A DNA stretch of 64,000 nucleotides from assembly GCA_020736575.1 (NCBI GenBank), contig JAGPYM010000045.1, positions 171,161 through 235,160 on the forward strand. Direction: 5' to 3'. Below the pieces are notes generated by a model. That model saw only the letters and a program-made list of their open reading frames with translations, searched no databases and was not told where the DNA came from. The stretch's first letter is position 1. Each line of letters begins with the position of its first letter. Below, piece by piece: positions 11,630 to 62,272 of the stretch. A program made the translations under genes and the position numbers. Origin of the DNA: Thelonectria olida. Taxonomy: Eukaryota; Ascomycota; Sordariomycetes; Hypocreales; Nectriaceae.

Positions 11630-12063
11630 ACGTATGTGATAGGCATGCGCCGCATCCAAGTATGCGCCGCACTCTGATTTTCACCTTAAATCGCGATTTT
11701 AAAAAAGTTCTTAAAAATTCAAATTAAGCTAAAATTAGCTATAACCTTAAAACTAAATTTATAGAGTATATAATAATAAGTTTACATTTTCTTAAATTAT
11801 TAGGAAATTTTTATAAAAAGTTATTTAGAAAAATCTTATTCGCACTGTTCTTTTTCTTATTTCTATTTTTAAAACGTTAAATAAATTAATTAAAAAGTTA
11901 AGAAAAATGTTGTCTTATGACTTTTTTAGTTAAATATATTAAATTAACTTTATAGAAATTTGGGGCTATATAGCCCGTTTTAGAAAATTGAAAATTTACA
12001 CTTTTAGCTGTACAGTATAAGTGCGGCGCAGACTTGGATGCGGCGCATGCTTATCATATACGT
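11630..12063. mobile_element. MITE E1 of the doubled-word pogo-like family, 434 bp
   Basis: Flanked by TA on both sides (11628-11629 and 12064-12065). Inverted termini read ACGTATGTGAT / ACGTATATGAT, followed by the word CATGCGCCGCA and a second near copy (TATGCGCCGCA or TCTGCGCCGCA) after a short spacer; both ends carry it. The interior is AT-rich, non-coding and shares AATCGCGATTTT, CTTATTCGCACTGT and TAGCTGTACAGTATAAG with the copies at 41363, 50373, 50506 and 61839. TA target duplication and size fit a Tc1/mariner-pogo MITE. Confidence 0.85.
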
Positions 12064-12409
12064 TATTATATACTTATATAAAGCTATACTTAAATAATAA
12101 TCTAATTACTAATCCATTTTAAAATATATTTTATTTTATAATTATTAAAATTAAATTTTATTCCTTTTTTTTTTTAAAAAAAAACCCAAAAAAAAAAAAA
12201 ATTTAATTCTAAAAATAAGGCAGGCCGAGCGGCAATTATTTTTCCGGATTCCACTACTAAATATAATATGGGCATTTTCTTCACTACTCCTTAGCATTTA
12301 CATTTCTACCTCCTCCCCATCTTTTTTCTAGACCTCTTGCTATCGGTCTCTTTATATCCTTATTCTTACTTCCCGCACTCAATCAACTCAAGCGCTACTC
12401 TGGACTATT
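12064..12409. other. AT-rich DNA and kinase 5' region
   Basis: 12080-12230 is AT-rich with a T11/A9/A14 homopolymer cluster near 12165-12205. 12240-12409 is pyrimidine-rich, as is common upstream of fungal starts, and is the likely kinase promoter. No other gene seen. Confidence 0.35.
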
Positions 12410-13698
12410 ATGACTATGGCTACTGGAGATACTGGCCTGAGCGATGTTACTACCTGCGCTTCTACCTGGGGCGACTTCGTAGACTCGGATGATGAGGCTG
12501 AAGTCGAAGATGCGTCCGAACCGACGAGCCGATATGAGCAGGGAATCTACTATCCTGTCTGCATCGGGGAAGTGCTTGCAGACAGGTATCGCATTGAACA
12601 TAAGCTGGGCCACGGTGGTTTCTCAACTGTCTGGATGGTGCATGACATGCTCAACGATAAGGACGTTGCCCTTAAAATCATGACAGCCGAAGATTCCGGT
12701 GAGCGAGAGCACGCCATGCAGAAAGAAATCATCAGTGCCGTGCAAGATACTTCCCACCTCTTGACATACCAGGAGACATTTCTGCTGCCCGGCGCCGCCT
12801 ACAGACACCACAGAGTCCTCACCTTTCCCCTGCAGGGCCCCAACCTGCAAACGTACGCCCGGTCAACACCTACTGCTGCCCGGAGGTCAGCTGCTAAACA
12901 ACTGCTGCAAGCTATCAAGGCGCTACACGATGGCGGATTTGTACATCGAGGTGCGTTGCGTCTGGTTAGATCGTGCCATGAAACTCTCTCTCCCGTGGAA
13001 GCTGACGATGTACTGCAGATCTCAATAGCGCCAACGTGATGTATGGTCTTTCTCCTTTCAAGAGCGGCAGCACTATAACCGAAAAGTACCAATATCTCGG
13101 GCGTCCCCGGAAAATGCCCTTGCCCGTATCCCGACCGATCTGGAAAGACGGTCAGCTCGTTATGCCGATGACCCCCCACGACAGCCTCGTAGAGGAGACT
13201 ATAACTCTTGGCGACTTTGGTCTGACCATCCGGTCCGGCACTTCAGTGGAGTGTAAGGTGCAGTCGCCTGCTATCTACTGCGCCCCAGAGCGTGTCCACA
13301 ATATTGACCCGAGCTTCGCCTCTGACATGTGGAGCTATATGTGTATCTTTGCCGAGCTTTACCTGGGCTTTCCCCTCTTTTGTGGTGCAGCACACTCGTC
13401 AGTGGTCGACCTTATGGTCAGAACGTTGGGGCCTCTTCCTTCATCCTGGAAGGGCTCTTATGAGGGTGGCGGGAAACACGACAAGTCGTGGTATGATCGG
13501 AGCAGAGGGCCGGAACTCAGGCTAGCCTTGGAAGCGAAGGTCACCTATACACGGGACGACATTGGCCCTGCCGAGCAACAGCTCGTGCTCTCTATACTGC
13601 AGAGGGGCTTATCGTACTCGCCCGAGCACCGCTTGAGTGCAGGGCAGCTTCTGGAAGATGCGTCCTTTAAGGAGCTAATGGGAATATATGGTCTTTAG
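12410..13698 (+). CDS. SRPK-like Ser/Thr protein kinase
   Basis: Two exons, 12410-12950 and 13019-13698. The 68-bp intron (GTGCGT...CTGCAG) joins FVHR to DLNSANV, so the catalytic HRD loop spans the splice site. The predicted product is 406 aa. Visible kinase parts: Gly-rich loop GHGGFSTVW (residues 67-75), VALK Lys about 89, HRDLNSAN about 179-186, GDFG before the activation segment, CAPERV, and SDMWSYMCI. All key residues are present. The N-terminal 45 aa are acidic. Layout and the CAPERV/SDMWS motifs fit the SR-protein-kinase-like group that is expanded in Fusarium-type accessory regions. Substrate unknown. Start chosen at the first Met; a second Met is two codons on. Confidence 0.85.
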
Positions 13699-15778
13699 GA
13701 CTGTATGGCGGCTATCGGATAATGACGCGCAGCACGAAGATGGGTAATCAAGAGGCAACAAAATAGGTTTTCGATATACACTATATAAACGCTATACTTT
13801 CCCTTCTGTCATCTACCACTATGCGTTCAGGCCCGTCATATAAGTACTAGAGCGATTTTATAATCACGCAACCCTTTCCAGCGCAGGAAGCCCGTGAAGT
13901 AGTCTTGAGGTCTGAGGGTAAGCATACAGCCAGAATGCCCCAGCACGCGAGAAGCCAGAAGTGAGCTTGAATTCTGCCTAAGAGCGGTGGGGGGGCCTGG
14001 TCAGAGCTGAGCGACTTCGCCTTGCATGCCTTGCACTGTTGGTTATCATTCGGATGTTGGATGTTAGCTCGGCAGACCCGAGGCAGGTTGCTGTTCTCAC
14101 GCATTCGTAGGTAGGCATTAGGCCAATAAGGGTGCTCTTCCGAAGACCGGACCCACCGCGCATTCGAACCAACAACCTTCAGCAACCGCCCGGCTAGCCC
14201 TATCAACCTCGTCTAGGCGGACAGGCAGGTCAGGGTAAAAGTGAGTACAGAACTAACAACCAAAAAGGGGGCACCCGCTAAAAAAAAAACAAAAAAAAAA
14301 AGAACCAACAGAGTTTCAAGACAGTCACGGCCAACAAAGACTAAAAGCCAATACAATGCTATGCTTCTGTGGATAAGATGTTCAATGACCCCGCTTCCGG
14401 ACGTTGGAAGACATACCTGGTGGCTTGTTAGCCCTGCCTCTCTACTATTCACCCTGGCCTACCCGGCCGCATTACCGCAGCGTCAGGTGGATGCCATCCA
14501 ATTGGACGGTTCTTCCGTATACCGGTCCACCACATCGAACGAGCCAACGGCGTTGGGCAACCGCCTGGTTAGCCCATGAGCAAGGCTTAGGTCGGAGTGC
14601 TGGGGTGAACTTGACATCGAGCCAACGACACGACGAAGTTACCCCTTTCCAGCCAGCGTCAATTCGCAGGGGGCTAAACGTTTCAAGTAGATGGAGCTTG
14701 AAGACGGAGTATGAGCTAGAGAGAAGCCGGAGCATGAGCTAGAGAGAAGCTGGAGCATGGTGGACATAAGCCTAAGCGCTCAAAAGAGCCCATCTCGTGA
14801 TAGGTTGATATTAATATAGGATGCAAACACACACTTCCGGTCGCACCAACCTAAAGAGATCTGGGTGAGGCGGCGACATAATCGCGCGGCTATATGTGGT
14901 TGTAACGATGTTAAGCGCTCTCAATCAGAAGACACTCCGTTATCTCTGGCACCATACATGATGGAGCGAGCTAGCTTGTGTGATCGGGTCAACCCAAGTC
15001 CAAGCTTGGTTATTTTTAGACTCAAGGCAAGTGCGCAATCATCATATTATCTTTAGGATAAAACCAAGTTAGAGCCAACAGCTCGAAATGATCTAGACAT
15101 CTACGTATTAGCTAACGCAAATGGAAAGTTCCTAATAGAACCCCAATTGTTAAGCGCTTGTATTCTTAATATAGTAGCACATCTGCGCCTATTATCTAAT
15201 AATATAACAGCAAGCGCCCTTAGCCAGCAAGCCCTCAGGCTATTCGAATCATGGTTTAACTATAGCCTGTAGGGAAAGGCCAGGCTCAGCGTCTAGTTGT
15301 TTCAAAGCGGGTAGGCATAAATGATGTCATTATCTAAAGTGCCTGAGAGACTTAGTATTTATATGGATAAGGGGTTCCTATTATTTTAATAATAAAATAT
15401 TATACTCCCTGGTCTTTTATTTTATTTACTATAAGAATATTCCAAGCTTTTTATCTATTTATAAGTAGTATTAATATTCTTATTTTATTTAATAATTACT
15501 TTACTACTTACTACTTTATTTCTTTACACGGTCTACTATTATTCAGCATATAATAGCCAAAATGCGTAAGTTTATATACCCAGGAGCTAGAGAAGGTTAA
15601 CTAATATAAGTATAATAGAATTTAGGATTATTGAACTCCTAGTAGTCTCTGTCTTCCCAGTTGCAAGCTTGGGGTTTTATAGTAAGCTTCTTTTTTGCTT
15701 GGAGAACCCAACCTTATACAACCTCAAGTGAAACTAATAAGTAGTAGCATTATCCTTAACTGGATGTGTGTCTAATAG
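13699..15778. other. Intergenic, no supported gene
   Basis: Small frames at 13847-14742 overlap on both strands without domains or splice logic. 15100-15560 is AT-rich. A short tandem repeat sits at 14701-14757. Confidence 0.35.
14701..14757. repeat. Short tandem repeat, unit about 24 bp
   Basis: GAGCTAGAGAGAAG followed by C/TGGAGCAT repeats at least twice, with a partial third unit upstream. Minisatellite-like and non-coding. Confidence 0.6.
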
Positions 15779-16689
15779 TCCCGGGTTACCCAATGTCTTC
15801 CTTGTGGCTATGAACAGCTCTAGTGTGGCAGAGCTTCGAGTTGGGTATTTTGGTAATGCCCTCACTGCTCCTATAAGACGGTTAGCATGAGAATGACATA
15901 TTGCTAACCGCTGCTGTATGATCTAATGCTGATAGTCTCTATACAGGTGTGTGCTTGCATCGAAATGGAAGTCAGACCTGCGTTGCTACTCCCTATTCGG
16001 TTTCTCCTCAGTCGCTAAAATCAACCCTCTCTGTTCGCCTGAGCCAGAATGATATAAACTCTGAGCTTTCCACTGCCATATTTTCGACTGCGCTGCAGCT
16101 ACAGAGGAGTATCTGTTTCTGCTTACAGACGTTTGCTGGGGTATTATTTATATCTAGCCTTTTGCTATTCCTTACTAGGATCTATATCCATATGAGTAAA
16201 TGGAAAAGGCAACAGTGGCGGCTTATTGAGCAGAAGTGGCCAGAGAAGGTGCTTATAAGTTCAGTGGCCATCTCCCTTATTAATGCAGCTTCTATTACAC
16301 AAACTGGAAACGCTCTTCAATTCGCCACCGGCAAACTGGGCAACACTTCGCTTAGTATTAGAGCTGGATATACGCTGCAAGTCCTCGAGTGGCTCGGATT
16401 TGCATTCTCTGCGACTTTCTACGCGGTCGTAACTAAACGGTCTACCAGGCAGAGTGGCAATGGCCTATCTAGTAGTGAGAAGCTCGATAGCTTCCCACCG
16501 GCGCCGCCACCACGACCACCACCCCCGGGGGGCAAGGTCCCCCGCCTCCGCCTCCGCCTCCGCCTCCGCCTCCACCTCCAGCTCCACCTCGACGGTAATC
16601 ATATAGAGTTAGAGTTACCATATAGCTATTATAATTATATTATATTTCTAGTTTGTTTAGTGAAAAAAATAATAAAGAAAATAGATTAA
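15779..16689 (+). pseudogene. FIG1-like membrane protein, N-terminus missing, C-terminal frame slip
   Basis: Exon 15779-15852 (encodes PNVFLVAMNSSS...VGYFG) joins exon 15947-16689 (VCLHRNGSQTC) across a 94-bp intron with donor GTAATG, branch GCTAACC and acceptor ATACAG. The YFGxC...C pattern, followed by three hydrophobic spans (about nt 16120-16185, 16250-16310, 16370-16440), matches the fungal FIG1 family of low-affinity calcium-influx/membrane-fusion proteins. I found no first exon with the N-terminal membrane span. After the last span the frame reads an Arg-Leu repeat through a CCGCCT microsatellite; another frame reads poly-Pro and stops at about 16599, so a slip in the C5G6 tract at about 16525-16535 is likely. 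Confidence 0.6.
16543..16590 (+). repeat. (CCGCCT)n microsatellite
   Basis: About six to seven CCGCCT/CCACCT units in the 3' part of the FIG1-like gene. Such tracts slip easily, which fits the frame change seen there. Confidence 0.85.
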
Positions 16690-16746
16690 CTAGATATTTA
16701 ATACAAGGCCATCCTTTGTTGCATAGAACCCAGATCCAGCCCCTTA

Positions 16747-17126
16747 TGTCACGGCCCATGACAGCCAGCAGTCACGTGTCAAACTGCCCTCTCAAATTTC
16801 TAAACCAATTACAATAAGGACGTCTGGGAACACTCTGGATCACTTTGTGAACCAGAGTGAACCACCAGACAAGATCACCGTGGGTCACTTCGTAAACCCC
16901 CGTGAACCCCTCAGACCCGTCCAGTATATAAACACATTCGTTTAGCACATTAGATAGGGCACAGCTCTCCAGCTTTCAATACAACTTGGTTACACTCATC
17001 TACTTTGAGCACATCACCAGACGTAACAACCCACTACATTGCTCAGACCTTAACGCCTTGATCTCTTTGCTAACATAAACCTAGAACCCTCTAGTCTAAT
17101 TGTTAGGAATTGACTAGATCGTTACA
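16747..17126 (+). mobile_element. Solo LTR, 380 bp, with 5-bp target duplication CCTTA
   Basis: Starts TGTCACGG and ends CGTTACA (TG...CA). CCTTA stands directly before (16742-16746) and after (17127-17131). It matches the LTR at 63451-63838 along its length, for example AGTATATAAACACATTC and CTAGAACCCTCTAGTC. No internal retrotransposon sequence follows, so the element was removed by LTR-LTR recombination. Confidence 0.9.
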
Positions 17127-17355
17127 CCTTACACTAGTCTATTAAATAGTAATAATAAAGGTGGAAAATCGTCAAGTTATTATTATTTAAATTAAATGTA
17201 TTATTAGTTAACTATACTGACTCATATCTGCAAAGAACGCGTATAATGCAATACTATAAAATAGATAATAAATAAGACTCTCAGAGTCCCAACTCACAAG
17301 CAAAGATAGTCAATTATTAGCCGAATTCTGTCCAACATCAAAACCATTGGACGGG

Positions 17356-17735
17356 ATGAATATGATGCTCTTCCCTACATTGCTAGCGACAAGGTAAGTA
17401 CTGCAACACGTTGTAGCGAAGCACCACGCCCTCTGCCCGTCTGTAATAATTACTCCGACAATTAGTAACAAAGGAAAAGATATGATAACTCTTGCTATGG
17501 TGACCAGCCTTTCGTGGGCGAAGACATGGCCTGGGGCTGTGGCTCCGACTCCAACGTCAACCCGCTTACCTTTTTGGATGCGGACGCGGCCAAGGGCATC
17601 CAAAACTCCAAGGAAACGTTCTCGTACTCCAATTGTCTGATGCGTGGCAAGAACCGCAAGAAGGGCAAGATCTGCTGCGGTTGCGCTAACATGGACCTTA
17701 GCTATGGCTACAGTGATACCTATTCCCATGTGTAG
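17356..17735 (+). CDS. Small Cys-rich protein, putative secreted effector
   Basis: Exons 17356-17393 and 17474-17735 give 99 aa. The donor GTAAGT is strong; the acceptor (AACAAAG) was chosen because it is the one that opens the long frame. Codons in exon 2 are strongly C/G-ending, unlike the flanks, which supports coding on this strand. The N-terminus is hydrophobic (MNMMLFPTLLA) and is followed at once by a Lys-Arg pair that could be a Kex2-type site. Six Cys occur (SCYG, WGCGS, SNCLM, ICCGC). The frame is also open for 12 codons upstream of the Met, so the true start may be earlier. No family recognised. Confidence 0.5.
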
Positions 17736-18228
17736 GAAGTGCGCCGTCGAAGTTGAAACGGAAGGCCCTACAGATTCAATTCGGGCTGCTGATCTCGACC
17801 AAAACATTCCTCTCGGCCTTCTATACATTTCTATCTCGGACTTATACCCTATACCTGAGCTTGGATCTTGGCGATGGTAGGCTGGACTGGCCACCCAGCT
17901 GCAAATTGAACACGAGGGACGATGAGCAGATGGTGTGGAGGCTAACTAGTACAGGGCATCTTTCTCCAATCCAGCATTGACCAAGTTCACACTCACTGCC
18001 TACGCGGTAGAGGACCGGCGGCACCTCAATGAGCCCTGGGACAGGAGGAAGGGCGTGCGAGAAAACGGGATGGTCTGCGGGGATTGTGGTGGCGGACCAA
18101 AGCCGAGATTTGATTTTCTCGACCTCGTCTTTAAGGTGATATAATATTCTAGTTCCTAGCAACATATACATGCATTCTATATGTCTCCTCTGTGCACACT
18201 GAGTACCTTGATAGAGTCGACCCATCCT

Positions 18229-20277
18229 TCAAAGCTGATGCACGCTGCTGTCCTTGCTCCAACGGCGAAATGTCTTTCCATAAAAGTAGAATACGACACC
18301 AAACAGGCACCAGAGGAAGACCAAGCTTCCATTTGTCATAATAGGTGGGATGAAACTGAATTAATATTAGTACGATTGAATTAGCACGTTGATGGATCAC
18401 TTACCCTGCTTCTATGCTCCAAGGAGTGATGAATTTGCTAAATCCGTAGCCCCAGAGGTTCTTGTTGACTGTGATGCTCACGAACAGGCTGCCAGCAACT
18501 GGCTTATAGCTGTCGACGGCATATGTACTCGAAATGCTAGGGAGGGCCGCGACTTGGATACCTGCGCAAGTATATCCAATAAGAACGATTACCTCCCATG
18601 GCCAAGAGTTCTCATATCCAACTGAGACGACAATATTTCCGAGGTACATAATAAAAACATATGGGATCATGGCGAGCAAGCGCATCTCTGGCTCGCGAAT
18701 ACCGTTATTTCTGGCGGTGAGTTTCGCAGCCACCCAGTCAGACAGAGGACCACCCGTCGCCAAACCAATGAGAGCTCCGACAAAAATCGCAAAATTGGTA
18801 AATCCAATCGCCTGGCTAGAGAAGCTATAAGGCGGCGCGGCAAATGCTTGGCTTTGGGTCAGATTAATTGTTAAGAAACAAGAGCAGCTCCAAGAGACAA
18901 CAAAGCTGGCAAATTGAACGATGGGGAATGCAAATAGCTTCCAGGGGGTCCACAAGTCCAGAAGAATGGTCTTGAAGGGATGGGAATTTGGCTGGAAGAG
19001 CCTAAATTGCCGTTTGGAGGGCCTGCCCTTACCAAGGAAAGGGTCTCTTCGAGCCGTCTCGGTCGCTGTCAAAGCATCAAGCCTATCGGTGGACATCTTG
19101 ATGGCGGGATCTGCTGTGCCCTGGTTGTCTTCCTTCGAAACCTCGGCGTGTTTAGCATCGGGCGAACTGCCATTCTTATCGGTGTCGAGTCTGGCTTCCT
19201 CAGTGATTTCGTGAGGGTGGAGGCGATGCCACCTGGTTATCGTTAGCGAGGCGTTTCAGTGATCAAGCAATGAGAATGACGAACTTAGTCTCTGGAAATA
19301 GGAAGACGACATAGAGCAGCACAAACGCGGCCAGGGCCACGTTGAGCCACCAGAAGGTACGCCACCCAACATTCAGGGCCATAGCTCCACTGACGATCGG
19401 ACCGACCATCAATGAACCCATGTATGTGACCCAATACAGAGTATTCCATTTACCCCGGTCGTGCAAAAAGAAGATATCTAGGATGACTGTTAGATCTGAA
19501 TCGAGGAATATTCATGTTTCAGTAACGGTTTAAGATGTTGACTTACCAGCGATGACCTCAGGTTGGATCGATTCTGCAGGACCAGCGCCAATACCGTTGA
19601 GCCTGCTTCGCGGTTCAATAAATGCTTCGAGAACGATGCGTGGCTATCAATACATACACACAGGCGCCCATGAAACTCCCATACGTCGTCGCACGCGCTC
19701 TCCATATCATAGAGGCGAGGCAGATCAAGTTGGAGAAGATGTATACAGGCCGTCTGCCGAATGAACTGCTTATCGGAACCCTATCACACGGCGGTTAATG
19801 ACCTTGTTCAACTCGAGCCGGCCTCTTCCGCCGCAACACAGATGCAGAACTTGCCATATAAAGTTGCTAAATCCCAAAACCAATATGCACACTCCAGTAA
19901 ACTGGATAGCGTCTGCCAGGGTACATTGAAACTCTTCAATGTAGTCTGGGAACATGGGCGCGAGTGATAGTGGCCCAAAGCCCTGGAAGAAGCTGACCAA
20001 ACTGGCCCCAACGATTGCTAGCATCTTCCATGTAAATGACCAATTGAGAGGATCGGCAGGATCATCCGAAGGCTGCGGAACGAGGACACGGCTGGAACCT
20101 GAGCTATCCTTCACAAAATGGTGCGATCTAACATCTCGCATGATCTCTGTGCCGGGTAAGATTTCTGTGTGGAGCTCCTCCCTGATGGCTTGGAGCTCCT
20201 GAGATTACAATGAGGATCTTTCCTCCAAAGTGGCATGCGATAAATGGACATACCTGACCGCTATAGTTCATCTCCAT
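18229..20277 (-). CDS. MFS transporter, HOL1/DHA1-like, 7 exons, intact
   Basis: Exons on the minus strand: 20254-20277, 19855-20198, 19658-19780, 19547-19602, 19285-19477, 18405-19232, 18229-18355. All phases fit and total 564 aa. Family marks: DPADPLNWSFTWK before the first span, FGRRPVY, the GIGAGPAE segment, HDRGKWNTLYW, WRTFWWLN and FPETKWHRL before the central loop, then six more hydrophobic spans. This is the layout of fungal plasma-membrane drug:H+ antiporter-like carriers; the substrate cannot be read. Intron 2 (19781-19854) uses a GC donor (GCAAGT) with a TAG acceptor. No premature stop. Confidence 0.9.
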
Positions 20278-33175: not shown

Positions 33176-34312
33176 ATGACAGCCCCGGGAAGCTTCGGGT
33201 CGGGGACCGAGGGATTCTCCCAGGCGTCGCGGGACATCATCATCGTCTTCCTGTCCATCGCCATGTACAATGCCCTCGAGCTGACATTCATCATCTGGTT
33301 CACCTTCAAGCGGCACTCAGGCTTGTACTTCTGGTCCTTCGTGGGAGCGACATGGGGAATTCCATTCAACTGTACCGGCTTCCTCATCAGGTACTTTGGT
33401 TCCCCGTCACTCGGCTATCTGGCCGGGACGCTGGTTTCCGTCGGCTGGATATTCATGGTGACGGGACAGTCGTTAGTGTTGTGGTCTCGACTTCACTTGG
33501 TGTTGCGGAACCGAAAGACCCTGAAGATGATTCTGTGGATGATTTGCATCGACGCTGTCATCTGTCACGGAGCCACTGCACCGTTGATCATCGGCTCGTT
33601 TTCTAGCAACCCCAAATGGAAGCAGGCTTATAAAATCGTGGAGAAGATCCAGGTGACCGTCTTCTTCCTTCAAGAGGTCATCATTTCCTGCTTCTATATC
33701 TTCGAAACTGCCAAGCTTATAAAACTCGAACTGAGCATGGGCAACAAGCGAGGAAGCCGCCGCCTGATGAACCACCTCATCTTTGTCAACACTGTCATTA
33801 TCATCCTCGACATGACCACGCTAGGACTCGAGTACGCCGGCCAGAACCAGTACCAGACTTCATACAAGGCCTTTGTGTACAGCACCAAGCTGAAGCTGGA
33901 GTTCACCATCCTGAACCGCCTGGTGGAGATGACGACTGGAGACAAGGACGCCAGCTCGGGCCCGCGAAGCCGAACCAACCAGACCAACATCAGGGCGAAC
34001 ATTGAGCTCCAGACCTACATCAGCGACGCGGGAGCCAAGCCCGTCAGCGACGTTTCATACCAGGCGCATGACATGGGCGGCGAGGAGGGCATGGGCGGAG
34101 ATAGGACAAACCACGGAAAGCGGCCCAAGGGTGACACGGGCGCCATAATGGCTACGGGGATTGTCGTGCACCGAGAGAACCGCAACGACGACGAGAGCAG
34201 GGAGGGCAGGAAGTCGATGAGCGATTCAACAAACCGGCCGACCAAAATGTTTGACGGATCGAATTTATCCAAGTCGTCGTCCGAGGTTCATCTGGTGACC
34301 CGGGGTTTCTAG
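33176..34312 (+). CDS. DUF7703-type integral membrane protein
   Basis: Single exon, 378 aa. Hydrophobic spans at about residues 20-44, 50-72, 80-103, 117-140, 157-178 and 199-220, then a hydrophilic tail of about 150 aa rich in Gly, Asp, Arg and Ser. The N-terminal YNALELTFIIWFTFKRHSGL region and six- to seven-span layout match fungal DUF7703 membrane proteins of unknown function. Start context CACCATGAC is strong, behind a pyrimidine-rich leader. No lesion. Confidence 0.8.
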   Translation: MTAPGSFGSGTEGFSQASRDIIIVFLSIAMYNALELTFIIWFTFKRHSGLYFWSFVGATWGIPFNCTGFLIRYFGSPSLGYLAGTLVSVGWIFMVTGQSLVLWSRLHLVLRNRKTLKMILWMICIDAVICHGATAPLIIGSFSSNPKWKQAYKIVEKIQVTVFFLQEVIISCFYIFETAKLIKLELSMGNKRGSRRLMNHLIFVNTVIIILDMTTLGLEYAGQNQYQTSYKAFVYSTKLKLEFTILNRLVEMTTGDKDASSGPRSRTNQTNIRANIELQTYISDAGAKPVSDVSYQAHDMGGEEGMGGDRTNHGKRPKGDTGAIMATGIVVHRENRNDDESREGRKSMSDSTNRPTKMFDGSNLSKSSSEVHLVTRGF

Positions 34313-37115: not shown

Positions 37116-37337
37116 ACGTACTCCACAAGGGAGTCGGTCACCCAAGTGAGTCGGTCAAAAATCCGTCAACCTCCCCTCTTTGTATCTAATCATCTATTTC
37201 TCAACCACAAAACATGTCACAATCAAATAACGAGTCAAATATCATTCTTGCCCTTCAAGCCTACCAAAATGACCCAAAACTAAGTCTCCGACGCGCCGCA
37301 AGGATCTATGAAGCCCATTATAGTACTCTTGTTATAT
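37116..37337 (+). mobile_element. Fot/pogo-like transposon 5' end with truncated transposase (E7)
   Basis: Preceded by TA (37114-37115). The terminus has the family layout (ACGTACTCCACAAG, then GGAGTCGGTCA and TGAGTCGGTCA as the doubled word). About 98 nt in, an ATG (37214) begins MSQSNNESNIILALQAYQND, then LSLRRAARIYEAHYSTL: the helix-turn-helix (psq/CENP-B type) start of Fot/pogo transposases. The frame runs into AT-rich DNA after about 40 residues, so no catalytic domain is left. Confidence 0.75.
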
Positions 37338-41362: not shown

Positions 41363-41805
41363 AGGTATGTGATAAGCGAGTGTCCCAAACAAGCGAGTGT
41401 CCCAAAGCAGTTTTATAGCTTAAAACGCGATTTTTAAAAAAAATCTTTAAAATCTTAAACTAATCTTAAAACAGCTATAATTTAAAATATAAATCTATTA
41501 AATTACTTATTATAAAAATTAATTTTCTTAGATTTTGTAAAAAAAATCCTTTATAAAGTTATTTAAAAAAAGCTTATTCGCACTGTCTTTTTCTTATTTT
41601 TATTTTTAAAAAGCTAAAATAAATTTTTAAAAATTTTGAAAAAATAATATCTTATGACTTTTTTAATTAAATATTTAAAATTTAATCCCTAAAATTCTTA
41701 GAATTATATAGTTAACTAATTTTAGAAAATTAAAAATTATAACTTTTAGCTGTACATTATAAGTGGGACACTCGCTTGTTTGGGACACTCGCTTATCACA
41801 TACGT
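41363..41805. mobile_element. MITE E2 of the doubled-word pogo-like family, 443 bp
   Basis: TA on both sides (41361-41362, 41806-41807). Termini AGGTATGTGATAAG / ACGTATGTGATAAG. The doubled word CGAGTGTCCCA is identical in all four places (twice per end). The interior has the same AT-rich, non-coding blocks as E1 (AACGCGATTTTTAAAAAA, CTTATTCGCACTGTC, AACTTTTAGCTGTAC). Confidence 0.88.
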
Positions 41806-50372: not shown

Positions 50373-51033
50373 ACGTACTTCATAAGCGAAATGGTCATAC
50401 AAGCGAAATGGTCAGTAAGATTTACACCTTAAATCGCGATTTTCAAAGAATTTTAAACATTCAAATTAAGCTTAAAATGGCTAACTAATACTTTTAATAT
50501 AATGTAGTTATATGATAAGCTTGTGCACCAAACAAGTATATGCACCACTTATACTGTACAGCTAAAAGTACAAATGTCAATTTTTTAAAACTAGCTACAT
50601 AATTAATAAAATAAAAAGTAAAAATTTTAGCCTTTTTAAGAAAAGAGTCATAATATTGTATTTTCTTTAAATTTTTAATTTTTTATTAAGCCTGTTATAT
50701 ATAAAATTCCAAAAACACACACAGTGCGAATAAGATTTCTTAATAACTCTATAAAAAAGAACAAATAGAATTTAGGAAAATTCTTCTATATAAGATCTTA
50801 TTTAATTAACCCAATTGTAAACTTTTAGCTATTTAAGGCTTAGTTTAATTTTTAATAATTTTTTTAAAATCGCGATGTACAGTGTAAAATGCGATTTTGC
50901 ACATACTTGTTTAGTGCACAAGCTTATCACATACGTTAGTTAGCTAGTTTTAGAAAATCTAATACTTTTGCTTCTAGCTGTACAGTATAAGTGTTGCATT
51001 CGCTTGTCTGTGGCACTCGCTTATCAAGTACGT
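50373..51033. mobile_element. MITE E3 (outer), interrupted by E5
   Basis: TA on both sides (50371-50372, 51034-51035). Left terminus ACGTACTTCATAAG with word CGAAATGGTCA twice; right terminus ACGTACTTGATAAG with CGAGTGCCACA / CGAATGCAACA. The two ends share the ACGTACTT core but not the word, unlike the other copies. Subtracting E5 leaves about 230 bp, so about 200 bp of interior is gone. Confidence 0.75.
50506..50936. mobile_element. MITE E5 nested inside E3, inverted, 431 bp
   Basis: Termini AGTTATATGATAAG / ACGTATGTGATAAG. The word is CTTGTGCACCA then TATATGCACCA on the left, with near copies on the right. The side bearing CTTATACTGTACAGCTAAAAG faces left, opposite to E3. TA is seen on the right; the left flank has decayed. 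Confidence 0.75.
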
Positions 51034-51035
51034 TA

Positions 51036-52324: not shown

Positions 52325-52336
52325 TCGTAACTGAGG

Positions 52337-53202: not shown

Positions 53203-54447
53203 ATGGCCCAGCCAAAACCGCCCTCCCCCCCTTTCACCCGGGAGACCGCCCAGATCAAGGTCAAGGCTGCCCAAGACGCGTGGAACACGAGGCGAGCATT
53301 ACCTTCCCTTTGGAGTCAGAACGAAGGCGATAAATGATCTGGGCTGTGCCAGCGCATGCACATGCGCTTATGATGCGGCGGTTGGGCTGACCTTTTGGCG
53401 CACCAGGGACCCCTCAAAAGTCAAGATGAGCTACACTGCCGATTCCCTCTGTCGCAACCGCGATCGCTTCATCAAGGGTCGCGACGAGATCGCGGAGTTC
53501 CTGACTGACAAGTGGAACCGTGAGCACCAATACAAGCTGCGGAAGGAGCTCTTTGCCTTCAACGGCAACGCGGTATGTTTTTCTAAGCTTCAAGTTTTTC
53601 TGCCTCCTTAGGTGTTTGCGTATGCGACTTTGCATGCGCACAACCTACCTCCCTCTCTGCCTTTCAGTTCAATAGGGGAATCCCCGTTCTCTAACCAAGG
53701 TGCCCGCTGGGCCAACAGATTGCCGTTGAGTTCTGGTATGAGTTCCACGATGACGACAGCCAGTGGTGGCGGTGCTACGGCCTCGAGGACTGGACCTTTG
53801 ACGAGGACGGCCTCATGAAGAAGAAGAGGCAGATGAGCAGCATCAATGTCAAGATCAAGGAGGAGGAGCGGTGGTTCAAGGATGGCGTCGACGTCAACGC
53901 GGTGCAAATTGGACCGCAAAGGGCAGATTCTATAATGCCATTATTGGCTAACATCATTTCTGATTTGTCTCCAGACCCATGGACATTGTACGATTTTACA
54001 GTCTATCTTTCAAGCAACGATTGCCTAGAAACCCTACAATTCTTCCAAGACGCATCGAGATACCGATATTGTTACGCGGAAATAGTCGGAGGTAATCGAA
54101 CCCCATGGGTATCTGTAAGGTGCGATTACGATTACCTGCGGGCACTATGGGAAGATCTTCTGGAGAATTACATCCTTCCTAACGGACAACGCGAGGTCAA
54201 CCTTCCCTCTGAAGTTAGGGATCGACTTCTTGGATTCTGTTCCTCTGACTTGCTTCCACATCCTTCGGAATTGGACGATGCTGTCAAAATTGTCCGTGAA
54301 CTCATCGAGGACTCGATCCTACCTGGGTTCCTGAACTCTCATATGTCGGCGAAGCAACCGAGCAATGGAGTGCGTGGTGCCTTGAAGAGAATTGGCAGCA
54401 GCCTTCGACGGAAGATCTTAACGTCGCTTTCGGAATGGGACCCTTAG
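53203..54447 (+). CDS. Chimeric gene: DUF1348 domain fused to an RGS domain
   Basis: Exons 53203-53291, 53407-53572 and 53719-54447 give 327 aa in one frame. Residues 1-155 are DUF1348-like (AWNTR/DPSKVKMSYTADSL, WYEFHDDDSQWWRCYGLEDW, WFKDGVDVN). After VNAVQ the DUF1348 ending is replaced by about 170 aa with an RGS core (DPWTLYDFTVYLSSNDCLETLQF, FQDASRYRY). Intron 1 has a GC donor in poor context (GCGAGC) and is longer (115 bp) than in the intact paralogue at 35097. RGS proteins speed GTP hydrolysis by G-alpha; whether this chimera is expressed or folds is unknown. It may equally be a recombination scar. Confidence 0.65.
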
Positions 54448-54449
54448 AG

Positions 54450-54761
54450 GAAATTTCGAGTGAGGGGCATTTGTTGTACACGCCGCCGCTCGGAAGTAGG
54501 TGCCTCACCATTACCTCGTGGCCACTTGCTGTGGCGCGCGATGGAGCTGTTCGTGATGAAGCAGAAGGTTATAGGCTGTTGCAGCACGTCGGATACTTAG
54601 TTTCGGGCCATTTTGAAGGGCTTAAAGGGCAAGAGTTTTAGCCTCGGTATTTGGTTGTGACATCTTAAACGGTTGAGAAATAGACGATTATATGAAAGGT
54701 TGGGAGTTTGAGGGATTTTTGCGGCGCATACTTGGATGCGGCGCATGCTTATCACATACGT
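54450..54761 (-). mobile_element. Fot/pogo-like transposon 5' end with transposase relic (E6)
   Basis: Read on the minus strand: TA, ACGTATGTGATAAG, then CATGCGCCGCA and TATGCGCCGCA (the same word as MITE E1), then AAAATCCCTCAAACTCCC and an ATG (about 54663) starting MSQPNTE, with LSIRRAATAYN further on. It matches the E7 fragment after the terminus (AAAATCC, TCTATTTCTCAACC, MSQ). A TAA in the second transposase line and a later frame change show decay. The catalytic part is missing. Confidence 0.7.
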
Positions 54762-54789
54762 TAGCGTATAATTATATAGCAGAACTCTC

Positions 54790-56040
54790 ATCAAACAAGC
54801 CACGCATGGACTCGTCGTCTATATAGCCATGTCGGCATTAAGACCTCTAAGGCTAGTCATGCACCTCGTGTTGCTGCTACGCAAAATGCCGATATGGCTG
54901 GCGTTCCGGAGGCACAAGTAGGTAACCTCCTCTGACTCTGGTAACACTATTAACTTATTATTAGATTAGACGTGCTGGCAGATGGAATATGGGAGACTCA
55001 ATGATAGGCTGTTATCTCACATCGCCACCCTACGCGTTCACGAGAGCCTCTGCCGACTTCTCGCCAGAATGGGCTGGCAGTTACTTCATTCCACGCTCCA
55101 CGGTTTTGCCCTCGGCTTGGCTACGTTCTCAAATTTGGCCTCAGGCTGACTTTTGCTTCCAAGTCATCAAAGACTCTAGTCACGAGATGGCTGAAGTCTT
55201 TGAGAATAAAGCTACTGGTGCTTTTATTGAGCTATTAGGATGGTTACGAGTAGTCTTGTTGCAAGATGCTCCTTTTCTCGCACGCGATTTCCCTAACCAT
55301 CCTATATTCAAAGATCCCATCTTCAAGCCCGATGAGTACAAAGACTTTACTGCAAGCGTCTTACGCGCCTCTGAAGAGTCTCGTGAGGATAGCCAGGCCG
55401 AGTTAATTCAGAAGGCAATACGTGCAATTGCAGAGAAAGTCCGTGGATTTGAGGCTGGAATCTATAATTTAAAGAAGACTGTAGAGACGGAGGTTTTATC
55501 TCTCAAAGCAGAAGTGACGAGGCTGAAGGACGAGATCAAGAACGCAACAAGGCTGAGATCACTATAGTCACAACTATCAGCCCTTTCGGCAGAACACATC
55601 GTCAGACTGTTCCATACGAACAACAAGAAGGTATTCCAACGTCCTCACAACGAAGGCAGTCTTCATCCCTAGAGACCAGAGCCCCGGCAGCTACCAGAGC
55701 CCCAACGGCCATCACGACAACGACAGAGTTAACTCCACAGATCGGATTCCCACGTACTATTCGTACAGTCAGAGATCTCGTGAGGCTCTGGAGATATGGT
55801 CTGGCAGGCTATATGGACTCGGTTGAGGCGTTAGAGAAGCGATGGGGCTCACAGTGGCGGCTACGTAATGAGAGGCAACTCTTTTCTACTCGCAAACGGA
55901 TCGTCGATGAGGTGGTCTCTCGGTCACAGGCAAACGGCTGGTCAGAAGATGAGTCGGCGAGACAGCTGGACGAGGAGAGAGGGCAACGTTCATTAGATTG
56001 GCTTTTTAAGCAACTTAAAAGACCGTACAGGCCAAAATAA
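54790..56040 (+). mobile_element. Crypton element C1, 5'-truncated
   Basis: Encodes SHAPRVAATQNADMAGVPEAQ, then after a 47-bp intron (54918-54964) IRRAGRWNMGDSMIGCYLTS: the His, Arg and Tyr of a Crypton tyrosine recombinase. A coiled-coil segment follows to 55567. 55735-56040 encodes RTIRTVRDLVRLW, LEKRWGSQWR: the GCR1_C-type DNA-binding end. The N-terminal part with the first catalytic Arg is lost, and the frame is broken near 55570-55740. Same order and strand as C2 just downstream. Confidence 0.8.
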
Positions 56041-56611
56041 ATAGCTGCTGGATCAGATCACCCGAGCCTCTATGGCCTACGTTACCCCTGAGCAATCTAA
56101 GCAGATTTAACCATCTAATCGTGACCAAACAGATGTCATCTTGTTCGCCTCGTTCTTGCGAGTAAAATGATGGTGTCATTGTGTTCGTAATGTAAAAGAA
56201 TTAAGCCCACAATGAGTCTGTATTGATAGCGTTCCCAGAGGCTGGTACAGTAACTAGAAGAATTGGAAATAGTCGACTGTTTTAGTGGAGTTTTAGTGGA
56301 GATGTGGCAGCAGTGTGCTGAAAGACACACTGAAGACCGCCTAAGAATCCGATCCATAGAAACTCGCGTATATCCACAAGAGCTTGCTGATCGGCCCCTA
56401 AAACTCCAGGGAGCTGCAGGGGCCTCCAGCGCTATCCAACGCCTCCGGGTCCCGATCCTGCTGATCTGGCGCTAGCGCTCCCCTACCCTCCCTAAATCAA
56501 TGATATATTCCTGCAGACCCCAGGCCTGTCTCTGGCCCTTCTTTTAGACCTCATTTCTTTTTAAAAATTGGCTTTTTTTCCCTTCTAAAGATATATATTT
56601 AACTATTAGTC
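56041..56611. other. Spacer between Cryptons
   Basis: No gene; 56540-56611 is the pyrimidine/AT-rich leader of C2. Confidence 0.35.
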
Positions 56612-58831
56612 ATGGGAAGACAAGCTGGGAAGAAGAAAAAGACAACTGTGGCGGCTGTGGCTGACTCTATTACGGTCAGGACCAGCGCAGCAGCCGGCGC
56701 TGGCAACTATCGTCACCACAGTCGCATCGGGCTCAACGCGCGCAACAACGCCGAGCTCCGCGCCAACGCACAGAATATCCTCTCGATGATCCAGGAAGCC
56801 AGACCGAAGAATGCGCTAGCTGCGTACGAACCAAAGCAGAGGGAGTTTAGGGACTTCTGCGAGCGCAAGCAGTATCAGGATGCGGATACCGTCACAGAAG
56901 ACAAGCTTCTCCTCTTCCTTACTGAGGAGGTCGCGGACCGGCCGCTGAGGGCCAAGAGCCTCAAGGCGGCTGAGGATACTCCACTGCAAGCTACGCGGCT
57001 TGCCTGGCGATCAGTCCGCAGCTATACGACTGCCATTACGGACCTATATCGTACCCAGAAAGCGCTTGGGATGAATGCCCACCCCTCGCCACGCGAAGAC
57101 AACGTCCGGGAGTATCTCAAGTCCCTCCAGCGCCGGGATGCTCAGCAAGACAAGGCTAGCTATGCCGACAAGGGCCGTGATACCCTCCTCGATGGGTACA
57201 CGGAGCAGGAATTTGAACGCGTCTGCCACGAGCTGTGGGCCCATAGCAGCAAGGCTCCCGAGTGCCACCTGCGGACTCTCGTGGATCTGCTGCTCGGGCA
57301 CTATATGCTGACCCGGGGGGGGGCCACCGCCGCGCGGCCGAGATCTCGGACCTCTTTACCTTCGAGTTCGAAGGGGAGGGCCCGACCCGCTGCATGCCCG
57401 TGATCTTTACAACACGGGCAGGGAAGCAGAACCAGCATGGCCGCCTTGAGACAGCCGGGGCCCTCCGGAATAAGAACCCGCTTATCTGTATGCTGGGAAG
57501 CCTTGCGTTCTACCTCCTCTACCGGTGGGATATAGCCGCCGACGAGCCATTTCCAGACCTCAGCCGGAGGTCTGCGTGGTACGATACGCGGCTGATCAGA
57601 GGGAGCAGGAGCGGGCGCGACCATACGGCAGCCCTCTCGTACAACTCGCAGCGGGACTGGGTCGTTAAGGCGTTTACGTATGCAAGCATCGCCTCGAGGA
57701 AGAAGACGCACGTTGGCCGGAGCTCGGGGGCCAAGACAGCCGAGCTAAAGGGGATCAGCGAGGACCAGATCCGCCGGGCAGCCCGCTGGAACCAGGAGCA
57801 GATGATCGGCTGCTACCTGAACTCCCTGCCTCGCAAGTTCATGCGCACCACGGCAGGGCATCTGCCGCAGAAGGGGTGCTTCGAGATACGCCGTGCCAGC
57901 ATCATGCCGCCGGAGACGCTTCTCTCTCTAATCTGGCCAGACCTCGACCGTTGGAAGGGCCGATTCGGCCCTGCCCCTGATCAGATCAACGACCTTGCGG
58001 CAATGGGGCTTACGAACCTGCTCTCGTACCTCCGCGAGGTCATCCTGCAAGCGTCAGTCTTCCTGATCAAGCAGTTCCCAGATAGCTCGGTTTGGAACCA
58101 CCCGGTCTTTCAGCACGAGGTCTACACGCAGTTCGCACAAGAGCTATCAGCCCTTGTGCAAGAAGCGGGCGAGAAGCCGAGCCAGCTGGCGCTCCTAGCC
58201 CAGGCCGTCCCAGCTCTCGCGGACTACCTTCAGTCCGTAGATGCCCGTAACGACACGAGGATCACCAACCTCAGGGCCGACCTACAAGCCGAGCTTCGGG
58301 GCATCAGGGAGCAGTCCTCGCAGCTCCAGTCGCTCTTCTCAACCGGCCTCACCTTTCAGCTCAAGACAGCCGCCACGCCTGGTCTCCTACAGCTACAACC
58401 AGCACCAAGCGGCGGCGCTGGCGGAAGACACATCAGCTTGCTCAAGCAGTAGCAGCAACGGCCGCTCGGTGACCCCAGGGCTAGAAATGCCGCCACGGCA
58501 TCGGATGTGCCGGGAGGTTAGGACAGTCAGGGACTTGTGGAGAGAGTGGACGGTTGGGCTCCGAGGCCAACTGGCTATTGCTACCCTTGATAGCCGCTGG
58601 GGAAGCCGGTGGCGGGCGGGCCGGCAGAGCGAGGTGCAGTGGTACTCCCTACGGCTTGAGATTGTCAAGGAGATTCGGCGTATGGCACAGGCGCGGCGTA
58701 TAAGCGAGGAGGCTGCGATGCACGCTGTAAACCTGCAGCAGCAGCAAATGGGTTACTCACTTGATCAGCTCTGCAAGCTCCTCAGAGCGAATAGAAAGGC
58801 CCGTCTAACTGCACAGAAGAGGAAGAAGTGA
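56612..58831 (+). mobile_element. Crypton element C2, tyrosine recombinase with two frame slips
   Basis: From ATG 56612 the frame gives a Lys-rich start, a core-binding-like domain (ALAAYEPKQREFRDFCERKQ), and HYMLTRGG, the first catalytic Arg. At the G9 run (57315-57323) the frame shifts; it resumes at RRAAEISDL. Then KKTHVGRSSGAKTAELKGIS, IRRAARWNQEQMIGCYLNSL supply the His-Arg-Tyr set. The GCR1_C end (VRTVRDLWREW, LDSRWGSRWR) is in another frame after about 58400. All four catalytic residues R-H-R-Y are present. Without the two slips it would be about 730 aa. G/C-rich codons and few stops suggest it is much younger than the RIP-like elements nearby. Confidence 0.88.
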
Positions 58832-59679
58832 AGAGGTATCGGCGGTATCTGTAGGGTTCTTAATCAATTCATCCATCATCTACCATCTCCATCCTCCTCG
58901 TGAGCTGTGAATACCGCCTCTAGCCGGGCCAGCAGTTCGCGGCCAGGGCTCCTCTCGCAAACTGACGGGCCCGGGGGTCTGGTCTCGATGGCTTTAAGCA
59001 GGTTCCAGGTCATTTTGTAAGTTGGAGACGCTCAATTGCGTAGGAATTGCAGCAGGTCGATCATGCCAGATGGCCGTGGATATCCTATTGATATTACGGA
59101 GTACTGTATACCCAGATAAGCAGCATCTCTTTCTATCTTGGAGGAAAGTCACCATCTGATGGCCAAAAATGGACGACAAAATTGGAGGCTGTGCGAGCAA
59201 CTATCCGGTTTGCATTGGCCACAGGCTGTTGCATATGCCTCTACCCAGATTGTCACACGAGTGCACTAAGAGAGTCAGAGCGGTGTTAGAGATCTGTTGT
59301 AGGTTCGGCAGGTCTAGTATCATAGCCTCGCCTCGTCAAATACAATGAGGACGAGGAAGGAAAAAGACTACGAGACAGAGAGAAATCAATCAATCATCTG
59401 TTCTCCATCTTGAGGTTATCACTCATCTTGACTTACCACCCTCGTATCCGACACAGGCCGCCTTGATGCAAACTAACCGGGGAGACAAACTTGGACGTAC
59501 ACACCCTCACTAACCCACTATTTCCAGCCAAACTCGACCCTCACCCCGTGCCAAAATAGCGAACACCGCTTCAGCCGCCGTAGATTGGACACTGAACACT
59601 TGAAGAATAGGCTTCAAGCTAGTTCGCTACTAACCCATGAGAATCTGCAGAGGAAGAGAGAGATAACAGGTAAGGGAAG
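58832..59679. other. Intergenic, no supported gene
   Basis: No domain or repeat recognised until repeat T at 59680. Confidence 0.3.
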
Positions 59680-59840
59680 TGTCAGATATTGGGGGTGAAT
59701 TGTACGTTGTTCATCTTGTTCTGCCTGCTGTTTGCTACTTGAGGTTTCGGAGCAAGCTCTATATACCTTTTCTGTGCTATGTGGAATCAACTGGAAGCTG
59801 CTTGCTAAGCCTGTGGCAATATGGGCTGAAGGAGATCAGG
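59680..59840 (+). repeat. LTR-like repeat T, copy 2
   Basis: Begins TGTCAGATATTGGGGGTGAA; matches 50132-50285 as described there. Includes a TATA-like CTCTATATACC, as expected of a promoter within an LTR. Confidence 0.6.
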
Positions 59841-60628
59841 ACACAATTTGGGCAATGTAGGCTATATTAATAATTAGTGCCCTTTCGGCTCAAGCGCGTT
59901 TGGAAGCAATAGGCAATTTCCATGCTTAGAGAGGGTAGGGTTCTCACAATGGACGATTATCAGAGACTTGTCGTGGCTCAATTCTTCGAGCCACTGCCAG
60001 GCCTCTCCCAGATATCCTGCCGCCAGTTCGTCTTGCGCCATGTTGCCCCGATCCTTCTTCCCAACACTGCCGACAAGGTAGATGTTCAACCCAGCCCTTT
60101 CCAGGGAAGCATGAGCTATACAACTATATTAAATGCTCACTCCGCGCACGCCGGTCATCGCATTGCCGTCCAGTTCCGAAGCGACAAGCAAGATCTCTTA
60201 GGGGTCACCGAACCAGCCGCATTCATGGGCCTGTTATGCCCTTGGTAACATACTGGGGTATGTACGAGGGCTGTTTGTGTATACATCGCCTTTTGCAGAA
60301 GGCGTACCGTATATCAGTGTCTTGATGTCTTCTCGAGACTTTAAAATACCGCTCCAGAAGAAGATGACGACTCACATGGACCTTGCAGACATCATTACTC
60401 TGGGAGCCAGAGCGAATACCACTATATCCGATCTCACTCTACTCTTGGTGAAATCCGTCATACGATCAATAACTACACTTTCCAAAACACAACTCTTAGA
60501 AGCAGCATCGCTACCTGCATCAGCAGACTCCTGCCACAGCCACGTGATCTCGCTACCCTTCCCGTCACCCTTACCCACCAGGATCTCGCTCCTTTTAATT
60601 ACCTTATCGACGACTCCACGGGCCGGGT

Positions 60629-60960
60629 TCAAGCTGTACTAGACTGGGATGGTGCTCTATACCTCCTCGTGTCCATGTCGCTGCCTGAATCCTCAGGGTC
60701 AGAGTCCCTAGAGCATGTGGATCCCACTGCGTCAATGTCCTCTAACAAGACGACACATCTATCTGGAAGCCCAGCAAATAGGCCCTTCAGCATTTGATCA
60801 TCCGTGCTGGGGATGCTGATGACGTAGATATCCATATCCAATTCACCGGCAATTGACAAGCTGGAGCTGGTTTTTCCGGTTCCAGGAGGGCCATATAAGA
60901 GATATCCTCGTTTGTAGGGGATTGAATGTTCAGAATACCGGCGTCTGGTTTGAGGGTCAA
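60629..60960 (-). pseudogene. BCS1-like AAA ATPase fragment
   Basis: The minus strand encodes SIPYKRGYLLYGPPGTGKTSS (Walker A), then LDMDIYVISIPSTDDQMLKGLF and DRCVVLLEDIDAVGS (Walker B), close to fungal BCS1-type ATPases. A TAG lies just upstream in frame (about 60966), and downstream (below 60660) the frame leaves the family within a Ser/Asp-rich linker. The N-terminal BCS1 domain and the second half of the AAA module are not found within 1 kb. It is a relic or a transduplicated piece. Confidence 0.7.
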
Positions 60961-61149
60961 TTGACTAAGTTTGTTTGGTGAAGATCTGGAAGCTTGTCCT
61001 TCTGCAATCTGCGCGCCTTTTGATGGCTTGATGAGTACTGTGGGAAGGGATGGGAGCGGCTCAGCCTCTTTGGATGACGTGCGAAAGGTACGACGACGAC
61101 GAGAAGATAGGATACGTCGTAAAGTAAGAGTCGGAGCGAGTCAGAGCGA

Positions 61150-61838
61150 GTAATAGGGGTATTGTCACTCTCTGCTTAGCGCGAATTATGAGGGTCAAGT
61201 GTGAGTAAGATATGCGAAGCTTTCGACACAACGAAGCCTAGTACATATATAGAGTAATACGATGCCAGCTAATTCTTTAGCTCGTTCGAGACGCGTCTTT
61301 TTTTTTATTAGGAAGTCCCGGTTTCAAGAGGGTCTCCTATGTAGCTTTGACTTGTCGAGAGTGGGGAAGGAGCCGGTTGGGTGGGGGTGTTAGAAGGATC
61401 TAGGCCCGGGCAGAGCGTCGGTCTTGGCAGATGGCGGTGCACTAGCGAGAGGCCAATGGGCAATAGGTAACTTTCCGTGGCCACAAAGTTGTGACGCGGT
61501 GGAGCCATCGGTACGGGAGGCCATTCGGGGCTCCGCACTAAGTCAGTGGAAAGGCAGGGGGATGATCGCATGGTGTCAGACAATTGGCTCCACAGGGATC
61601 ATTGATGGCACCTGTTAGATTGGATCATGTACAGTGCATAGGACCGGGGGTGGTCACGTGGTGACGCCCGGGGCCGCGTCAGGGCCTGGGAATGGCCTGA
61701 TGTATATAGGGGAAGATGAACACTCGATCGATCAGGGAGGAGACCTCCCAGAGAGATAACACATACACAATACGCACGATCAAGTCATCCAAGTGCCACG
61801 CTAGCTTTCCGACAGCACCAGCCAATTGATAAGAATTA
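61150..61838. other. Intergenic, no supported gene
   Basis: Nothing recognised before the MITE. Confidence 0.3.
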
Positions 61839-62272
61839 ACGTACATGATAAGCGAGCGACGCAGACAAGCGAGCGACGCACTTATACTGTAGAGCTAAAA
61901 GTATAAATTTTAGATTTGCTAAAACGGGCTATATAGCCCTAGGATTTTTAGAAAATTAATTTTAAATATTTAATTAAAAAAGTCATAAAATATTATTTTT
62001 CTTAGATTTTTAATTAATTTATTTAATATTTGAAAAAAAAAAAAAGAAAAAAAAAAGTGTAAATAAGACTTTTTTAAATAACTCTATAAGAAACTTTTCT
62101 AATAGTCTAGAAAAATATGTACTTATAATTATATACTTAATAGATCTATTTCTGAAATTATAGCTATTTTTAGCTTAGTTTGAACTTTTTAGAATTTTTT
62201 AAAAATCACGATTTAAGGTGAAAATCAGAGTGCGTCGCTCGCTTGTCTGCGTCGCTCGCTTATTATGTACGT
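61839..62272. mobile_element. MITE E4 of the doubled-word pogo-like family, 434 bp
   Basis: TA on both sides (61837-61838, 62273-62274). Termini ACGTACATGATAAG / ACGTACATAATAAG. The doubled word CGAGCGACGCA is identical in all four places. Same length as E1 (434 bp) but in the opposite orientation (CTTATACTGTA side on the left). A11-G-A7-type run inside (62034-62056). Confidence 0.9.

Follow-up and report, generated by a model that had tools for sequence, protein, structure and literature searches.

A stretch of 64,000 nucleotides from the genome of the fungus Thelonectria olida (contig JAGPYM010000045.1, positions 171,161 to 235,160 of the forward strand; hereafter the window) contains seven complete or fragmentary copies, E1 to E7, of a family of pogo/Fot-type transposons, the ends of which carry tandem copies of an 11-base word that differs from one element to another and is nearly always matched within an element. 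Each end reads inward as TA, ACGTA, two variable bases, TGATAAG or a similar sequence, the word, three bases, AAG, and the word again. The repeat unit is 17 bp long (AYAAG plus the 11-base word), is usually present twice per end, and most commonly takes the form AYAAG-CNNG-NNNNNCA. All seven termini and their words were found where the first-pass annotation of the window had placed them. Its description of three variable bases after ACGTA was mistaken, there being two between ACGTA and TGATAAG; a pattern with three matched twice in the window, no more than chance would give, and nowhere in a search of the genome, and it identified no real ends.

Elements of the window

Three of the miniature elements are complete. 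E1 (11630-12063, 434 bp) is a miniature inverted-repeat transposable element (MITE) flanked by TA, with CATGCGCCGCA at 11644-11654 and TATGCGCCGCA at 11661-11671 on the plus strand, and CATGCGCCGCA at 12039-12049 and TCTGCGCCGCA at 12022-12032 on the minus strand. E2 (41363-41805, 443 bp) has four identical copies of CGAGTGTCCCA (41377-41387, 41394-41404, 41781-41791 and 41764-41774), and E4 (61839-62272, 434 bp) has four identical copies of CGAGCGACGCA (61853-61863, 61870-61880, 62248-62258 and 62231-62241). E1, E2 and E4 have a common interior and different words. E5 (50506-50936), a decayed miniature element with the words CTTGTGCACCA/TATATGCACCA and CTTGTGCACTA/TATGTGCAAAA, is nested in E3 (50373-51033), a miniature element with mismatched ends: CGAAATGGTCA occurs twice at the left end, and CGAGTGCCACA/CGAATGCAACA at the right (51033, minus strand). 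Both ends of E3 appear to be parts of one element.

E6 (54600-54761, minus strand, inner limit approximate) and E7 (37116-37330, plus strand) are single-ended 5' fragments of autonomous elements. The end of E6 has CATGCGCCGCA/TATGCGCCGCA followed by the degraded start of a transposase gene, which was read directly from the sequence with no tblastn report. In E7, the words GGAGTCGGTCA/TGAGTCGGTCA are followed by a segment (37214-37330) that matches transposase residues 1-39 and is truncated thereafter (tblastn, E = 1.5e-07); an autonomous element on contig C110, e22, has a word and a DNA-binding domain very similar to those of E7. The within-element match of words proposed in the first-pass annotation is exact in E2 and E4, holds in E1, E6 and E7 apart from the first base and a single TCTGCGCCGCA in E1, and is not borne out in E3. 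The further proposal that the rest of the element is shared across the family applies to the miniature elements E1, E2, E4 and E5, and not to E6 and E7.

The autonomous elements and their transposase

Autonomous copies are about 1.86 kb long and encode a pogo/Fot-type (Tc1/mariner) transposase of 551 residues. A search of the genome with the transposase gave at least 80 matches, a lower bound with 79 of 315 candidates scored. At least 16 copies, including the query's own place, are identical across the whole protein and carry the word CGAGTCGGAAA, which is a recent burst. Thirty-seven autonomous elements were parsed and 26 distinct ones used, the other 11 being redundant, mutated by repeat-induced point mutation (RIP) or without a word; matches that were not fetched include later CGAGTCGGAAA copies, RIP-mutated copies and copies with no readable binding domain. 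RIP-like transposase copies with many TAG/TAA stops are found at C14:21628-23274, C133:2025434-2027080, C33:2257-3894 and elsewhere.

The transposase P0001 contains a DDE_1 domain (Pfam, E = 1.9e-31), and the residues of its D-D35-D motif (D163, D276 and D312) are invariant or nearly so in 56 aligned sequences, in which the C-terminal motif Cx2Cx4Hx4C (C525, C528, H533 and C538) is also invariant. A CENPB-type helix-turn-helix (HTH) domain, HTH_Tnp_Tc5, occupies residues 62-120 (E = 7.1e-07). HTH_psq has no match in P0001 at 1e-3; it is listed (PF05225) for many homologues, and the structure model has three helices at residues 3-43. Residue 26 of the model lies near the start of helix 2 (25-31), the recognition helix spans residues 36-43, and residues 44-60 form a loop, with low confidence at 51-55. 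The top fold match of the domain model is CENP-B bound to its box, which ranks 36th in Foldseek for the whole-protein model and is absent from the 50 VIA matches listed for that model. No relative of the binding domain turned up when solved structures were searched by sequence. No relatives were found in collections of viral contigs and genome contigs, and the correspondence between word and protein described below is thus examined in one fungus.

In a comparison of nine full-length elements, the 5' terminal inverted repeat (TIR) is 0.66 identical, the 5' untranslated region (UTR) 0.63 and the first 64 or so codons 0.71, with 0.82-0.88 beyond them; the 3'UTR stands at 0.68 and the 3' TIR at 0.67. 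The transposase of e29 (locus L105), which has the word CGAGCGCGCAA, aligns with a seven-residue gap around the recognition helix.

Words are matched within elements throughout the genome

The genome (52.5 Mb in 165 contigs) contains 207 places that match ACGTA-NN-TGATAAG-N9-CA-NNN-AAG with at most two mismatches, and only 10 that match the reversed pattern, so the end pattern is not due to chance. When two-ended elements, both miniature and autonomous, were parsed mechanically, the words at the two ends were at least 0.8 alike in 42 of 43. These 43 are what remains of 44 pairs once one false pair (the left end of E5 with the right end of E3) had been discounted manually; E3 itself is too long or short for the range of lengths parsed, and seven of 20 paired-locus elements had one end left unread. 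TA directly precedes 83 of the 86 ends, the exceptions being both ends of L031 and one end of L058.

Among 26 autonomous elements (a set that overlaps but differs from the 26 used for correlations), identity of words across ends is 0.978, against a mean of 0.620 and a maximum of 0.733 for shuffled ends. The sole element below 0.8, e18, has CGAGCTGATCA at its 5' end and CGAGTCGGACA with another preamble at its 3' end, and looks like a recombinant. The 16 miniature elements with two readable ends (L031 and L049 were left out, with median interior identity of 0.60 or less) give 0.963 across ends and 0.618 between elements, with interiors 0.732 alike; shuffled ends average 0.639, with a maximum of 0.847 in 10,000 shuffles (p = 1e-4). 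The TIR preamble of these miniature elements is also alike across ends (0.946).

Words covary with the DNA-binding domain of the transposase

Among 20 autonomous elements with similar cores, distance between words correlates with distance between N-terminal DNA-binding domains (Mantel r = 0.538, p = 0.0002) and not with distance between cores (residues 201-350; r = 0.008, p = 0.45). Column-wise mutual information with the word exceeds that of shuffles by 8.0 standard deviations in the domain (n = 21) and by 0.4 in the core (n = 20); the 20-element and 21-element sets differ by e30 and e31. The word of an element differs at 2.4 of 11 bases from that of its nearest neighbour by domain, compared with 4.9 by core and 4.8 at random (n = 20). 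The binding domain of e04 was entered by hand, the automatic parse having given that of a neighbour; the words of e10, e18, e27 and a few others were likewise entered by hand, and the first 5' unit of e18, with one extra base, was entered in its 11-base form.

This covariation is not explained by linkage alone, because synonymous change in the binding domain shows no such relation to words (r = 0.06) and the correlation of the adjacent 5'UTR with words (r = 0.33) drops to 0.11 (p = 0.16) given the domain; when UTR and synonymous change are both accounted for, the domain still correlates with words (r = 0.46, p = 0.0002; n = 20 throughout). The contact set in this linkage control was partly picked from the mutual-information result and is circular, and the contact set of the synonymous-difference comparison was picked for variability. 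A set of twelve hypervariable residues chosen from 56 database homologues only, which is not circular, gives r = 0.60; for the remaining residues, once these twelve are accounted for, r is 0.14 (p = 0.11).

Three pairs of residue and word position survive family-wise correction: 41/6, 26/10 and 29/10. Counted over the 26 elements wherever the residue is readable, arginine at residue 41 occurs with G6 in 17 of 17 elements, any other residue with G6 in one of eight, and aspartate with C6 in five of five. Tyrosine at residue 26 accompanies A10 in all four cases, and other residues in none of 21; tryptophan or tyrosine at residue 52 accompanies T3 in a unit in all six cases, and other residues in none of 20; lysine or arginine at residue 44 accompanies T5 in eight of nine, and other residues in three of 16. 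A divergent subfamily that was left out of the mutual information has G6 with arginine 41 in three of three elements and, unlike the main family, G6 with alanine in one. In the sister pairs e05/e08, e06/e13 and e09/e17, arm and quartet change together; in all three pairs one sister has tryptophan and the other threonine at residue 52, as one of 7 to 15 differences in the binding domain.

Across all 26 elements the plain correlation of domain and word is not significant (r = 0.089, p = 0.18), and it becomes so when corrected for core distance (r = 0.41, p = 0.0002, n = 24). The rule for residue 52 emerged after the second unit was counted too. Since the word, among elements with similar cores, covaries with recognition residues and not with the catalytic core, and is matched within an element, it behaves as a binding site that defines specificity. 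Judged from sequence, the words are very probably transposase-binding boxes that define specificity groups, as the first-pass annotation had proposed; their correspondence with the DNA-reading part of each element's transposase is tight enough to suggest that recognition follows a simple code. The best rules (41/6, 26/10 and 52/T3) look like contacts, and the structure model would suit recognition of one half of the word by a helix and of CNNG by an arm.

Miniature elements that switch words and repeats that stay alike

The interior of E4, used as a word-blind query, has 21 matches in the genome, including E4 itself and a weak inverted match inside E4; the elements found in this way have a common interior and many different words. 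In every one of the nine miniature pairs whose interiors are 0.81-0.85 alike, word similarity is only 0.50-0.68 and the new word is present at each end, whereas the words of the eight pairs with interiors at least 0.86 alike are 0.73-1.00 alike. Seven of the 16 miniature elements have words equal to that of one of the 26 autonomous elements used, and nine do not.

Most ends have two units: of 52 ends scored at 17-bp spacing, 45 have two, five have one, one has three and one has five. Four or five units, identical or almost identical to one another, are found at other loci, and L006 has five full units plus part of another, a variation that looks like slippage of whole units. Where the first and last units of an end differ (23 elements, one false pair having been removed), the difference is mirrored at the opposite end in 17, several of which are related copies. 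Such mirroring is compatible with whole ends being copied, or with enzyme requirements that depend on position. Together these patterns suggest, with less certainty, that the copies change together by slippage plus end-to-end copying. The gene conversion between ends put forward in the first-pass annotation is plausible and unproven; the mirrored differences and whole-unit changes in number fit copying and slippage.

Several loci have unusual arrangements of units. L006 (C12:21142, minus strand) and L079 (C47:9716, plus strand) have five and three full CGAGTGCACAA units, respectively, in each case with a partial unit next and, beyond it, sequence found in none of the other elements. At L071:495-700, a CGAGTGTCCCA element with five 5' units is situated some 150 bp inward of another end (CGAGTCGGACA/TGAGCCGGACA). 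A 17-bp tandem array of about nine units (AAG, AACATACAATA, TTA) at L070:380-533, just upstream of an element, has the unit length of the TIR boxes and a different sequence.

Identity in the core is patchy: at 1101-1300, e01 is 0.93 identical to e02 and 0.78 to e08, and at 1301-1500 the values are 0.82 and 0.92, as read without a formal recombination test. For e01 and e05, the two elements most alike in their cores, the synonymous difference is 0.47 in the DNA-binding domain and 0.15 in the core. Across all pairs it is 0.43 in the domain and 0.39 in the core, and is higher in the domain in 83 of 136.

Origin of the word classes

The family is most probably one of pogo/Fot-type transposons and miniature derivatives in which specificity resides in a cassette, made up of ends and DNA-binding domain and passed on as a unit, around a core that seems to recombine; the matched ends, the covariation, the patchy core identity and the variable number of units are observed. 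One transposase N-terminus would probably bind each tandem 17-bp box, its first HTH reading the last seven bases of the word, its flexible linker reading CNNG, and its second, conserved HTH probably reading the invariant AYAAG. Every box of an element would then have to match the element's own enzyme, and the TIR and the DNA-binding domain would therefore be inherited together as a cassette, around which the catalytic core appears to recombine. Words may be homogenised by slippage of units within an end and by block copying between ends, with selection for a working pair of enzyme and ends acting as a filter.

The word classes might instead be old lineages that diverged as ordinary subfamilies, their TIRs co-inherited under purifying selection with no copying between ends or units. 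In the nine autonomous elements, TIR identity (0.66-0.67) is close to UTR identity (0.63-0.68), and words therefore need not outpace neutral evolution; the preamble also matches across ends, and gradual descent predicts that the closest miniature pairs should have similar words, as they do. Such descent is harder to reconcile with the nine miniature pairs that have a new word at both ends, with near-identical units that vary in number by whole 17-bp steps, or with the mirroring of first and last unit differences, and it is a possible but rather doubtful account. Somewhat better placed, though still short of an even chance, is a history in which the interior moves and not the TIR, gene conversion spreading a miniature interior or catalytic core among elements that keep their own ends. 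The patchy identity of e01 to e02 and e08 is in its favour, as is the low synonymous difference of the e01/e05 core relative to the domain, an excess that is small over all pairs; nine of 16 miniature words are absent from the 26 autonomous elements used, so that many words have no visible donor lineage. Movement of interiors makes the same main claim as the specificity cassette with the opposite direction of transfer, and the data do not tell ends moving onto interiors from interiors moving between ends.

Mutation by RIP or random decay is hardly credible as the cause of the word differences. Some copies are RIP-like, and there are C-to-T changes in words (CGAGTGGCTCA/CGAGTGGCTTA), but the classes CGACGCA, TGTCCCA, TGCAACA and CCGGTCA differ by transversions too, agree between the two ends and vary with the protein. 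As a source of the main word classes, RIP, which the first-pass annotation had named as one process that could undo its reading, is ruled out by the transversions and the covariation with the protein. Binding of the boxes by a host protein, with the elements following host sites, is very improbable: no support for it was found, in the course of work that included no search aimed at it, and the words covary with the DNA-binding residues of the transposase and not with its core.

Comparison with known systems

The first-pass annotation knew of no described fungal family with such a layout; in fact the Trem elements of Paracoccidioides have it, with TIRs of two 17-bp direct repeats like those of Aft1 and Tan1 of Aspergillus, according to the available text of the Trem report (PMC2836289). 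These elements resemble those of T. olida in length (about 1.85-1.89 kb), TA target and TIRs of 42-49 bp with internal 17-bp direct repeats; their transposases (544-559 residues in TremA, B and D) have a psq-like HTH, a CENPB-type domain and D-D35-D, and three of them have the C-terminal Cx2Cx4Hx4C. A functional link between DNA-binding domains and TIRs was already raised as a possibility by the authors of that report. The Trem families are far apart, with HTH identity of 53-58% for the pairs named and below 40% for others in the same text, whereas T. olida has 20 distinct words on cores at least 70% identical to that of e01 over residues 201-350, as well as rules at the level of single residues, a variable number of units and miniature elements that switch words.

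Fot5 and mFot5 of Fusarium oxysporum are likewise pogo-type autonomous elements and a MITE of less than 500 bp with common TIRs, and one homologue, 73% identical, bears the source-given name Fot5 transposase; the part of the Fot5 report available describes no word classes or covariation (PMC3599309). For the Tc1-Mariner families of Sclerotinia sclerotiorum, the corresponding part of the report describes no concerted change or recognition code (PMC4188875). CENP-B has an N-terminal DNA-binding domain to which that of the transposase may be similar in predicted fold (1hlv as fold match), and a 17-bp box, but, as described in the available text, reads one box (PMC4446444), whereas the boxes of T. 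olida have diversified alongside the protein. No residue-level code linking transposase and TIR, and no word-switching miniature elements in such a family, were found in the titles and abstract openings searched, most subscription papers lying outside the search. As far as searched, the occurrence of 20 words on near-common cores in one genome, the residue-level rules and the word-switching miniature elements are new.

Change of a transposase together with all of its end sites at once has usually been inferred from a few distant pairs. In T. olida a single genome offers 20 words on similar cores, and there are sister pairs in which a difference in one part of the site goes with a difference in the corresponding part of the protein. 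Transposon specificity, the cross-mobilisation of miniature elements and the concerted change of repeats can thereby be put to a direct test; the set may also supply natural non-interfering pairs of transposase and ends. As a tentative view, to which rather less than even weight is given, one genome may harbour an ongoing radiation of mutually exclusive pairs of transposase and ends, in which the core is shared by recombination and a cassette of recognition helix, linker arm and boxes switches repeatedly, perhaps escaping miniature parasites or cross-mobilisation; the parasites would follow by replacing their ends, and the box would be predictable from about a dozen residues.

Other features of the window

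The protein encoded at 33176-34309 has its best match, apart from itself, in Thelonectria olida (80%). Overlapping open reading frames (ORFs) at 56612-58831 may encode a Crypton-type tyrosine recombinase, which they resemble, and one large ORF at 6772-9078 resembles a RecQ-type helicase and may encode one.
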